DNA of 64,000 bases from Synechococcus sp. KORDI-49 (GTDB lineage: Bacteria > Cyanobacteriota > Cyanobacteriia > PCC-6307 > Cyanobiaceae). The notes under the pieces were generated by a model. The model searched no databases. It was not told where the DNA came from and saw only the letters and a list, made by a program, of their open reading frames with translations. Where the stretch lies: assembly GCF_000737575.1 (NCBI RefSeq), contig NZ_CP006270.1, positions 995,163-1,059,162 of the forward strand, written 5' to 3'. Below are positions 39,828-43,590 of the stretch, piece by piece; within the stretch, counting starts at the first letter, position 1, and each line of letters begins with the position of its first letter. The position numbers and the translations under genes are program-made.

Positions 39828-40530
39828 GCTGCCACTGCTGCGGGCCCTGCCCCGGGCCTGGGTCGCCTTCGGCCGAGCACCGTGGCGCTGCGTCGGCCTG
39901 GCTTCCCTGGTGCTGCTCAGCGGCGCCGGCCTGGCGGTGATCGGCGAGGACCTGAGACGACTGGGGCTGGCACAGCTGGGTGATCTCGCCGTGGTGCTCA
40001 GCCTGCTGCTGCCGCTGCTGCCCCTGCTGGGGCTGCTGCAGCTGGCCGATACCTTGCTGCCCCCCCAGCAACCGCAGCGTCCAGCGGGTCGCCGCAGCTT
40101 TCTGCTGCGGCAGTCCCTGGCACTGCTGCTGATGGAGATCCTGCTGCCTCTGGGAGGCATCGCCCTGATTCAGAGCCTCAGCTGGGTGATGGGGCGGATC
40201 AGCACGACCCTGGCCGGACTGGTGGTGATCGGAGGTGGCCTGCTGCTGCTGAGCTGGTTGTTCAGCCAGGTGCTGGCCCTGCCGCTGCTGGTGCACCGCC
40301 GTTGCCGGGCCCTGCAGGCCATGGATCAGAGCCTTCAACTGGTCCGCAGCAACTGGCTCAAGGTGCTGGCTCTGCTCGGCCTGCTCGGGGGGTTGAATCT
40401 GCTGGGTCTGCTGGTGGCCAGTGTCGGGCTGCTGATCACCCTGCCCTTGAGCGCGCTCGTCATGATGGCCTGCTGCAGGGCTCAGACGCCCGGCAGCAGC
40501 GATGCCCGGCGAAACATGTTGCCGACGTAG
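39811..40530 (+). CDS. Multi-span membrane protein
   Basis: This 239-residue, strongly hydrophobic protein has about five or six membrane segments (about 28-45, 55-80, 100-125, 130-155, 185-220) and a short charged loop LVHRRCRALQAMDQSL. It begins with TTG, overlapping the end of the EVE gene by 17 bases. The C-terminus overlaps the convergent DUF2811 gene by 49 bases. No family is identified with confidence. Confidence 0.62.
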   Translation: MAPSTELPLLRALPRAWVAFGRAPWRCVGLASLVLLSGAGLAVIGEDLRRLGLAQLGDLAVVLSLLLPLLPLLGLLQLADTLLPPQQPQRPAGRRSFLLRQSLALLLMEILLPLGGIALIQSLSWVMGRISTTLAGLVVIGGGLLLLSWLFSQVLALPLLVHRRCRALQAMDQSLQLVRSNWLKVLALLGLLGGLNLLGLLVASVGLLITLPLSALVMMACCRAQTPGSSDARRNMLPT

Positions 40531-40730
40531 ACGCGGGTGATCTCGCGGGAATCGACACCGTTCTGCACAAGAAAGCCGGCGAGCGCGGCCTGCACCAGGC
40601 GGTACTGGTCCCAGTTGGGGTGCTGCTCGATGAAGTGGAGCATCGCCTGCTGCAGGGGCAGCGGCAGTTCCGACTGAAAACTCACCACGCTTTCGCTGCT
40701 CACCTGAACTGAATCGAGCGTTGTCTGCAT
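40482..40730 (-). CDS. DUF2811 family protein
   Basis: This 82-residue protein belongs to DUF2811, a cyanobacteria-restricted family. Conserved features seen are LPLPLQQAMLHFIEQHPNWD and RVYVGNMFRRA. No catalytic motif or membrane helix. The ATG at 40730 is preferred to the GTG one codon upstream. It overlaps the convergent membrane protein gene, and its promoter must lie in the intergenic region with DnaA-box-like sites. Function unknown. Confidence 0.85.
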   Translation of the reverse strand: MQTTLDSVQVSSESVVSFQSELPLPLQQAMLHFIEQHPNWDQYRLVQAALAGFLVQNGVDSREITRVYVGNMFRRASLLPGV

Positions 40731-40733
40731 CAC

Positions 40734-41044
40734 CCCTCTCCGGAACGTCCACTACTTCTCCACAACTCGGAGAGCGCGTCAAGGGTGTCCCAGACAACAC
40801 CAGTCCAACCGATCTCCCCATGAGACTCCAGCTCTGACCGCACTCCTGCACAGGGAACTCAGGCGACCAGGCGGCAACTCAGGCCCCAGGGCCGCGCGTC
40901 AAGAGGAAGCCGCAGGACATCGCCACTTTCCACAGCTTCAAGGGAGCGAGCCGCTTTCGCGGTAAACCCTGTGGAAAACCTGTGCAGAGCGTGCGCCGAG
41001 GCCGTGGAGCAATCAATGGAAGCGTTTTCCATAAGCCCCGCTGA
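40734..41044. promoter_or_regulatory. 310-base intergenic region with DnaA-box-like sites
   Basis: No gene is supported here. Four sequences match the cyanobacterial DnaA box TTTTCCACA at 8 or 9 of 9 positions: 40756-40764, 40926-40934, 40970-40978 (reverse strand, perfect) and 41025-41033. A short GC hairpin (CCGC/GCGG) lies near 40951. The region is upstream of the DUF2811 gene and downstream of the DUF1818 gene. It is not next to dnaA or dnaN in this window. Confidence 0.45.
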
Positions 41045-41416
41045 TCAAGCCATGGTGTCCAACAGGGTTCTCATGGCCGCGACCATCGCCGCGGCCGCCG
41101 GCGCGGGCCAATGGCCTTCCGCCCCGCGGTTCTGTAGCGGTGACAGCAGCACGGTCAGCGCCCAGCTGTGGCGATTACCACTCAGGCAGCCCCACCAGAC
41201 GCCGCGTTCGAGCTCCAGCTCGATGGCCTCCTGCTCCATCAGTTGGTCCACCAGCTCGCGATGCTGACGCTCCAGATCCGACACGAGATTCCCCAGATCC
41301 CGCCACTCCGATTCGGTGAGCTCGATCGCCCACCCCTCTCCTCCGATGAGCACCGGGTAGGTGCCCCGGGAGGGATCCCTGGCCAGTCGCCAGCCGGGTC
41401 CCTCCTGCTGAACCAT
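41045..41416 (-). CDS. DUF1818 family protein
   Basis: This 123-residue protein matches the cyanobacterial DUF1818 family: GPGWRLARDPSRGTYPVLIGG, AIELTESEWRDL and ELERGVWWGCL are recognisable. It is predicted beta-rich and cytoplasmic. The start at MVQQEGPGW is chosen over an upstream one overlapping rpoZ. It lies 4 bases after rpoZ and is probably co-transcribed with it. Function unknown. Confidence 0.85.
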   Translation of the reverse strand: MVQQEGPGWRLARDPSRGTYPVLIGGEGWAIELTESEWRDLGNLVSDLERQHRELVDQLMEQEAIELELERGVWWGCLSGNRHSWALTVLLSPLQNRGAEGHWPAPAAAAMVAAMRTLLDTMA

Positions 41417-41420
41417 CGCC

Positions 41421-41648
41421 TCAGCCAGGCAGCAGGTCGGGCTGATCCTGCTCGTCGCTGAGCTCGACAATGGCGCGCTGCACAGGCTTCACGCTCGATT
41501 CCTCCAGCAGCCCGTCGAAGTCATCGAAACGGCGTTGCTTGGCCCGGAAAGCGATCCGAACGGTGGTCAGATAGCGGTTGCTGGACTGACGGATCAGGCT
41601 TTCTCCCCGCTTGGCGAGGTCCTGGGAATCCACTCCTGCAGAAATCAC
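41421..41648 (-). CDS. rpoZ: RNA polymerase omega subunit
   Basis: RpoZ is a small accessory subunit of RNA polymerase. The cyanobacterial pattern is clear: [40 protein letters not shown] and [20 protein letters not shown]. The length of 75 residues is normal. Start codon is GTG. DUF1818 follows almost at once. Confidence 0.93.
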
Positions 41649-42009: not shown

Positions 42010-43590
42010 GTGCCCATCAGCACGGCTCTCGCCTGCGTGGGAGAAGAAAAGCTTCAGAATTCAATCCTCGCGACCCTGGCCATCGATCTGGGGAGCACCA
42101 CGACCGTGGTGGCCATCCAGCGTCAGGACGACCCACGCCCGCAGCTGCTGGACCTGCCACCCATCAGCCTTCGCCCCGGTGAGGTGCCCAGCCTGGTGTG
42201 GGCGGGTGAGCCCACGCCCCTGATCGGCCGGCAGGTGCTGGAGGCTGGCCTGGCGGACAGCAACGAGCCGGAGCTGGCCCGTGATTTCAAACGCGGCATC
42301 GGCGCCGGAGCGGTTCCGGGCGCTGCCGAACGAGCCGGGGAACAGCTGCTGTTGCAGATCTGGGACCGCCTGCCCCCGACCCTGACGATTCAACGCCTGG
42401 TGCTCACCGCTCCGGTGGAGACCTACCAGCCGTACCGAAACTGGCTGCTGCAGGCCTGCGCAGCCCTGCCTGTGCAGGAGATCGCCCTGGTGGATGAGCC
42501 GACGGCAGCGGCCCTCGGGGCGGGCCTGCCGGCCGGATCGCGATTGCTGGTGGTGGATCTCGGCGGCAGCACCCTCGACCTGGCGCTGGTGTCACTGGAA
42601 GGGGGCGAAGGCCGGGCTGCCCCGATCGCCCAGCTGCTGCGGCTCCACGGCCGCAGCCTCGGGGATCGCAGCCGCCAGAAACTCCGCACCGCCAGGGTGC
42701 TGGGCAAGGCGGGCCTGCGCCTGGGCGGCCGGGACATCGACCGCTGGATCGTGGCCGCCTGCTGCCCTTCATCCGCGCCGACCACAACCCTGCTGAATGC
42801 CGCCGAGCGGCTGAAATGCCGCCTGAGCGATCCGGATCTCGGCCTGGATCAGGACCTGCAGGAGCCCGCTGATGAACAGAGCCTGCAGCTCTCAAGGCGG
42901 AAGCTCGACAGGCTGCTGGAAGAGCGGGGGATGGACGACGCCTTGAAGCGGCTGCTGGAGGAGGCCCTGACCGGAGGGCGCCGCAACGGCTGCGATCTGG
43001 AGGATCTGCAGGGGGTGGTGGCCGTGGGCGGCGGTGCACAGCTGCCCTGGCTGCGCCGCTGGCTGCAGGAACACACGGCCCCGGCTCCGCTGCTCACCCC
43101 GCCACCGGTGGAGGCGGTCGCCCTCGGAGCCCTGCAGCTCACCCCGGGGGTGCAGGTGCGGGATGTTCTGCAACACGGCGTGTCCATGCGGACCTGGGAT
43201 CAACGCAGTGGGGCGCACCGCTGGCACCCCCTGTTCGTGGCCGGTCAGCCCTGGCCCAGTTCAGACCCCCTGGAACTGGTGATGGCGGCCAGCCGCAGCG
43301 GCCAGGAGCAGCTGGAACTGGTGCTGGCGGAGCCCCAGACCGAAGGGCGTCATGACGTGGTCTTCGTGGAGGGGATTCCCACCCTGCGCAGCAGCGACGC
43401 CGGGGAGGTCCGGCACCAGCCATGGCCCGGCAACCCTGCGGTGCTGCCCCTGGATCCACCGGGGGAAACGGGCCAGGACTGCCTGCGCCTGCGCATCAGC
43501 ATCGACGCGGATGCGGGACTGATCGCCGAGATCCACGATCTGCGCAGCGGTCGCGAGCTCCCGGCCCTGCAACTGGGAACCGTCCGCTGA
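42010..43590 (+). CDS. Hsp70-like ATPase with reduced C-terminal domain
   Basis: This 526-residue protein has an actin/Hsp70 ATPase domain: phosphate-1 LAIDLGSTTTVVAIQ at about residues 22-36, a phosphate-2 block LLVVDLGGSTLDLALVSLEGG at about 178-198, VDEPTAAALGAGL, and an adenosine motif VAVGGGAQLPWL near 338. The C-terminal ~150 residues keep part of a substrate-binding domain but lack an EEVD-type tail and are shorter than in DnaK. It starts with GTG and is followed after 59 bases by a membrane-anchored protein. It is probably a specialised chaperone; its client is unknown. Confidence 0.82.
   Translation: MPISTALACVGEEKLQNSILATLAIDLGSTTTVVAIQRQDDPRPQLLDLPPISLRPGEVPSLVWAGEPTPLIGRQVLEAGLADSNEPELARDFKRGIGAGAVPGAAERAGEQLLLQIWDRLPPTLTIQRLVLTAPVETYQPYRNWLLQACAALPVQEIALVDEPTAAALGAGLPAGSRLLVVDLGGSTLDLALVSLEGGEGRAAPIAQLLRLHGRSLGDRSRQKLRTARVLGKAGLRLGGRDIDRWIVAACCPSSAPTTTLLNAAERLKCRLSDPDLGLDQDLQEPADEQSLQLSRRKLDRLLEERGMDDALKRLLEEALTGGRRNGCDLEDLQGVVAVGGGAQLPWLRRWLQEHTAPAPLLTPPPVEAVALGALQLTPGVQVRDVLQHGVSMRTWDQRSGAHRWHPLFVAGQPWPSSDPLELVMAASRSGQEQLELVLAEPQTEGRHDVVFVEGIPTLRSSDAGEVRHQPWPGNPAVLPLDPPGETGQDCLRLRISIDADAGLIAEIHDLRSGRELPALQLGTVR

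Follow-up and report, generated by a model that had tools for sequence, protein, structure and literature searches.

A conserved DnaA-box array marks the putative control region of the small DUF2811 gene in cyanobacteria

Results

The window, a stretch of 64,000 nucleotides from the chromosome of Synechococcus sp. KORDI-49, contains a non-coding region between the genes for DUF2811 and DUF1818. Four DnaA-box-like sites had been predicted at 40756-41033 in this region, and all four were confirmed there. The features of the locus are as follows.

40482-40730, minus strand: DUF2811 gene (PF10929, E = 1.3e-27), ATG at 40730-40728, 82 aa counted from that codon; the gene that the control region presumably serves
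40756-40764, plus strand: DnaA box R1, TTCTCCACA, near the DUF2811 start codon; identical letters in 30/30 genus loci
40778-40782, minus strand: conserved TTGAC word that could serve DUF2811 as its -35 element, followed by R1 where the -10 element would fall
40813-40825, plus strand: conserved TCTCC-N4-GAGA word between R1 and R2, from the genus alignment
40898-40902, minus strand: conserved TTGAC word adjoining R2 (GTCAAG on the plus strand), of presumed function
40926-40934, plus strand: DnaA box R2, CTTTCCACA, inverted arm, in the reading direction of DUF2811, of an inverted pair spaced 44 bp; 30/30 loci have it with no more than one mismatch
40970-40978, minus strand: DnaA box R3, TTTTCCACA, a perfect match; counterpart of R2 in the pair, forward in the reading direction of DUF2811; exact in 27/30 loci
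40981-40986, minus strand: R4, weak tandem half-site TGCACA immediately behind R3
41025-41033, plus strand: fourth reported box, TTTTCCATA, not conserved
41045-41470, minus strand: DUF1818 gene (PF08848), next gene upstream of DUF2811 and co-directional with it, 3' end toward the region

The DUF2811 protein of the window scored 96.3 bits against PF10929, for a curated cut-off of 26.6. Several of the predicted sites match the DnaA-box consensus of the clade, TTTTCCACA (PMC4674748, in excerpt). A strict promoter scan found no sigma-70 -35/-10 pair in the region, although the TTGAC word is conserved, and Rfam gave no match there at the gathering score, with one sub-threshold match at 40266-40342. 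An HSP70/MreB-like ORF (42010-43590, plus strand) lies close to the DUF1818 gene.

The density of boxes in the region had looked higher than chance, and this held for the clustering but not for the total. With at most one mismatch, the whole 64 kb contains 6 matches, a number reached by 17 of 100 shuffles and hence not unusual. The genome contains 287 such matches in 2,585,813 bp; when 287 sites were placed uniformly at random, with the whole genome rather than intergenic DNA alone as the null, four fell within 278 bp in 0.11% of trials and three within 223 bp in 7.6%. No second group of three boxes within 300 bp was found in 20 sampled 20-kb stretches and 60 kb of the window, where positions were read by eye.

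We then compared one locus from each of 30 genomes of the genus, with the letters of R1 fixed exactly and one mismatch permitted in R2 and R3. The order, orientation and spacing of the trio were kept in all 30 loci, within otherwise diverged DNA: R1 and R2 are 168-171 bp apart, and R2 and R3 are 44 bp apart in 27 loci and 45 bp apart in 3. Behind R3, TGTGC was present in 30/30 loci and TGTGCA in 29/30. Three of the four predicted boxes are thus kept with rigid spacing in all 30 genus loci, which favours the original prediction. Only one of the 30 loci, that of KORDI-49 itself, had another box within 120 bp of R3. This box is probably a chance match, and the cluster would then consist of three conserved boxes and the weak half-site R4.

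The genus alignment revealed further short conserved words, namely two GTCAAG, one TCTCC-GAGA and a palindrome near the end of DUF1818, separated by variable spacers. Conserved words in variable spacers are what a protein-binding control region would be expected to show. When the intergenic region was used as a nucleotide query, divergence of the spacers limited the result to short matches, in 4 other genomes of 151; for this reason the comparison relied on synteny and spacing. DUF2811 itself was found in 34/34 genomes of the genus, in G174 solely as a stop-containing copy.

Outside the genus, a locus with 43% GC showed the same layout, with R3 there a two-mismatch box. The strict trio was present in 56 of 300 genomes of the family (KORDI-49 included) and not in the other 244, compared with 0/300 for a reversed control pattern; across the phylum it was found in 20 of 386 genomes, all 20 from the family of the window, and the reversed control in none. 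Records with the strict trio include Synechococcus WH7803, UW105, UW140 and MU1642 and Prochlorococcus MIT 0701. A scan of named records gave 39 stretches, 34 of them cyanobacterial; the other five, in Olivibacter, Bergeyella, Saprospira (two) and Faecousia, appear to be fortuitous. Among 16 other loci of the family, at least two boxes lay upstream in 12 and a single box in four (L218, L220, L221, L222). The 44-bp inverted pair was kept in 5 of 7 small-genome loci (L211-L217), and 4 of 5 loci from genera g5 and g9 had a single box only.

Boxes were also found at additional copies of DUF2811. All 16 loci of second and third copies that were fetched, from 13 genomes, carried one or more boxes, exact or with a single mismatch, 281-403 bp before the start of the domain. 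When 34 genomes of the genus were searched for tandem box pairs, 19 places were found, 18 of them just upstream of a DUF2811 gene (the exception being G156:1728187); the reversed control gave 3 matches. One genome, G177, has five DUF2811 matches, with tandem pairs upstream of at least three.

Of 145 genomes sampled from the class, 143 contained DUF2811. We sampled 20 class-wide loci from 16 families, mostly in closed genomes, and took 700 bp before the domain start as upstream DNA. At least two boxes lay upstream in 19 of these loci; the 14,000 bp of upstream DNA contained 74 boxes, 41 of them exact, compared with 12 boxes, none exact, in the other 46,020 bp. An array was seen in 15 of the 16 families, as well as in the window's own. 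Spacing peaked at 11, 21-22 and 43-44 bp for boxes on the same strand and at 44-46 bp for boxes on opposite strands, the latter as for R2 and R3 in the window. Typically, forward boxes stand mostly 11 or 21-22 bp apart, often with an inverted box 44-46 bp further, and the distance from array to gene differs between families. The longest upstream ORF, which is not always the immediate neighbour and lies on either strand, was identified for 10 class-wide loci. One matched no Pfam family and nine matched nine different ones: peptidase M41, photolyase-related, pentapeptide, AIR synthase-related, topoisomerase, Ycf66, amino acid permease, type IV leader peptidase and mechanosensitive channel. Since the boxes occur upstream of paralogs and across families with changing neighbours, the array belongs to DUF2811; by these comparisons the cluster goes with the gene and not with a position on the chromosome.

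In the class-wide sample, 19/19 loci had TTGACA behind the array, at a restricted distance of 142-187 bp from its last forward box: 182-184 bp in eight, 171-175 bp in five, and 142, 149, 149, 152, 154 and 187 bp in the remaining six. This box was chosen manually, leaving aside lone boxes further downstream in L196, L199, L200, L201 and L205. By eye, a NANAAT-like word stands 17-19 bp past TTGACA in most loci. Helical phasing of the distance gave a mean resultant of 0.58-0.66, which for 19 non-independent loci is suggestive only. An HLR1-like (RpaB) repeat, scored on the consensus of PMC9241938 (in excerpt), reached 17-18 of 18 in L192, L193 and L198, where it lies between array and TTGACA, and 16 in L207 and L208, with 15 or less elsewhere; in seven loci the best site lay at +91/92, counted from the array's last forward box. 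No HLR1 above chance was present in L191, L196, L197 or L201, and none was noticed in the genus alignment. These repeats hint at an RpaB input to the DUF2811 promoter in some lineages.

Several cyanobacterial lineages gave up DnaA or their dependence on it, and initiation by DnaA at oriC is established in S. elongatus (PMC7198777, in excerpt). We looked at the fate of DUF2811 in 118 genomes of one family (f7), with dnaA called at the curated cut-off. All 109 genomes with intact dnaA carried an unbroken DUF2811. In the nine without intact dnaA, DUF2811 was missing from three that also lack dnaA (G228, G391, G791), a stop-riddled remnant in two without dnaA (G453, G807), truncated in one with a broken dnaA (G771), and intact in three: two with a broken dnaA (G519, G786), and one, an 89% complete assembly, in which dnaA was not found (G772). 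Fisher's test gave 2.5e-8 by genome and 0.002 by genus, with no tree correction and a signal that amounts to about three lineages. Upstream of DUF2811 there were at least two boxes, at least one of them exact, in 14 of 14 dnaA-intact genomes picked; one exact box persisted in each of G519, G771 and G772; G453, G807 and G786 had no exact box and no more than one with a single mismatch. Gene and dnaA thus tend to be lost together in this family, as judged from their presence and integrity. All sampled genomes of genera g73 (G228, G391) and g120 (G453, G791, G807) were without dnaA; these genera may be further cases beyond Cyanobacterium and Geminocystis, the dnaA-less free-living species of PMC7198777 (in excerpt).

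In a second family, f6, a DUF2811 match was missing from 6 of 30 genomes (one of them 78% complete), and was partial or contained stops in four more. The genomes without a match were G820 and G825 (1.4-1.5 Mb), G824, G829, G831 and G816. Among 20 full-length loci of this family, eight had no box within 700 bp, five had one and seven had at least two, while partial matches without stops (G817, G282, G827) retained boxes; the association of gene and boxes thus has exceptions. These may be the lineages that PMC7198777, as excerpted, calls DnaA-independent.

The DUF2811 protein, 82 aa in the window, is 63-74 aa long in 17 class-wide sequences with mechanically chosen starts, and 13 columns are invariant across 21 aligned sequences. 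Sequence searches of Pfam, NCBIfam and PDB gave no other significant match (best PDB profile E = 0.11), and an AlphaFold model built from 23 sequences (pLDDT 56, pTM 0.37) was too poor for a fold search. By eye the protein has a strand-helix-helix look, which is only a lead. By eye it may also resemble ribbon-helix-helix DNA-binding proteins; no Pfam or PDB sequence match to these was found, and the model is poor. The searches made of viral contigs and phage records found no relatives. No paper naming DUF2811 was present in the literature library searched, and among papers on cyanobacterial DnaA regulons, DnaA-box clusters and origins, no title or opening of an abstract described the locus.

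Discussion

Taken together, these findings suggest that the array is an ancient control region ahead of a small gene, DUF2811, that most sampled cyanobacteria carry. We put at about 70% the probability that the region in the window is a DnaA-controlled upstream control region or promoter of DUF2811, and that DUF2811 encodes a small protein dedicated to the DnaA pathway. This reading rests on comparative sequence analysis, and three other explanations have to be weighed against it.

The strongest of them is that the array titrates DnaA or switches its nucleotide state, as datA and DARS do, acting on DnaA itself and merely standing beside DUF2811. The cluster does form a conserved core of boxes outside oriC, dense and of fixed geometry. 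Moreover, the array lies at 20-24% of genome length from dnaN, on either arm, in 13 closed genomes of the genus, and the datA and DARS sites of E. coli, too, do not code for protein, are rich in boxes and stand at a conserved relative distance from oriC (PMC4585315, in excerpt). However, the second DUF2811 paralog keeps a similarly steady distance from dnaN (33-38%) in the same 13 genomes; ordinary conservation of gene order can therefore explain such distances, and we give the 20-24% little weight. The restricted distance from array to TTGACA and the loss of the DUF2811 protein gene itself together with dnaA also speak against a site that acts on DnaA alone. A titration locus, one of the possibilities first raised for this cluster, is thus conceivable but not favoured, because the boxes follow DUF2811 through paralogs elsewhere in the genome and through changing neighbours.

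A replication origin, main or secondary, is far less probable. The number of boxes and their inverted arrangement look origin-like, and, with up to one mismatch allowed, no more than two matches were counted in the 14 kb around dnaN of KORDI-49, a single one of which lies upstream of that gene. Yet an oriC is expected at the GC-skew minimum, usually by dnaN, and the cluster is at neither. In KORDI-49, dnaN lies at 1.612 Mb and the site at 1.036 Mb, 576 kb apart. From 0.52 to 1.58 Mb, 12 stretches were sampled, and GC skew was negative in 11 of them, the exception being a slightly positive stretch at 0.91 Mb; it was positive in 5/5 stretches from 1.69 to 2.23 Mb and in 2/2 from 0 to 0.15 Mb, and near zero or weakly positive in the remaining four. 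The sign therefore turns between 1.58 and 1.69 Mb, around dnaN, while the site lies within the negative arm with negative stretches on either side. The suggestion of a secondary initiation site thus finds no support from skew, whereas that of a regulatory locus, rather than the standard origin, agrees both with a skew that turns near dnaN and with boxes that follow DUF2811. In another genome, G654 (2,696,255 bp), 20 stretches contained a single group of four boxes within 300 bp, namely the DUF2811 array at 774 kb, and skew there was weak, with no clear switch. An AT-rich unwinding stretch was not evident by eye in the cluster region, and origins of Prochlorococcus have been assigned to the stretch from the threonine synthase gene to dnaN (PMC2836286, in excerpt). 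The corresponding thrC-dnaN region of KORDI-49 (L104, 1610543-1613911), where oriC is expected, has fewer boxes than the DUF2811 array; some relatives in the genus have four or five boxes near dnaN. A predicted origin of Thermosynechococcus elongatus is flanked by genes of unknown function (PMC4674748, in excerpt).

A chance cluster, or unrelated promoter words resembling TTTCCACA, is hardly credible: box density over the whole window is ordinary and three boxes within 223 bp arise somewhere in 7.6% of random genomes, but the rigid conservation across the genus already contradicts it, as do the 41 exact boxes upstream of DUF2811 class-wide against none elsewhere and the lack of any exact box there in the dnaA-less G453 and G807 and in G786 with its broken dnaA.

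If the region is indeed a DnaA-controlled promoter of DUF2811, a DnaA oligomer assembled on the upstream array would act on that promoter. R1, just behind the TTGAC word, would place DnaA on the -10 region, and DnaA could bridge R1 with R2 and R3. Repression of DUF2811 would be the most likely outcome, since R1 sits where a -10 element would lie behind TTGAC; confidence in this step is low, and the direction of the effect is a guess. The dose of DUF2811 would then report DnaA activity, and the protein may in turn feed back on DnaA-dependent replication. More tentatively, and with rather less confidence than in the promoter itself, DUF2811 might be a near-universal cyanobacterial regulator that works on DnaA or oriC, with a DnaA-sensing promoter that closes a feedback loop and, in some lineages, a light/redox input through HLR1 and RpaB.

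A conserved DnaA-box array, together with one small unstudied gene that tends to be lost along with dnaA, offers a concrete candidate component of DnaA regulation in those cyanobacteria that keep the protein.

Known systems provide three points of comparison. Bacillus subtilis has conserved DnaA-box clusters outside oriC, one of them at sda. As here, the sda cluster precedes a gene whose product is very small, and it is tied to the state of replication; cluster geometry and phylum differ, and DUF2811 matched no other family, Sda not being among those compared. Like the array described here, datA, DARS1 and DARS2 of E. coli are non-coding clusters of DnaA boxes away from oriC with conserved internal geometry and relative position (PMC4585315, in excerpt). 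In contrast to them, the cyanobacterial cluster tracks one gene and a TTGACA element, and no role of IHF or Fis is known here. Finally, the cyanobacterial oriC by dnaN uses the same box consensus, TTTTCCACA, as the cluster (PMC4674748, in excerpt), whereas the cluster stands away from dnaN, at a place where skew does not switch, and is linked to DUF2811.
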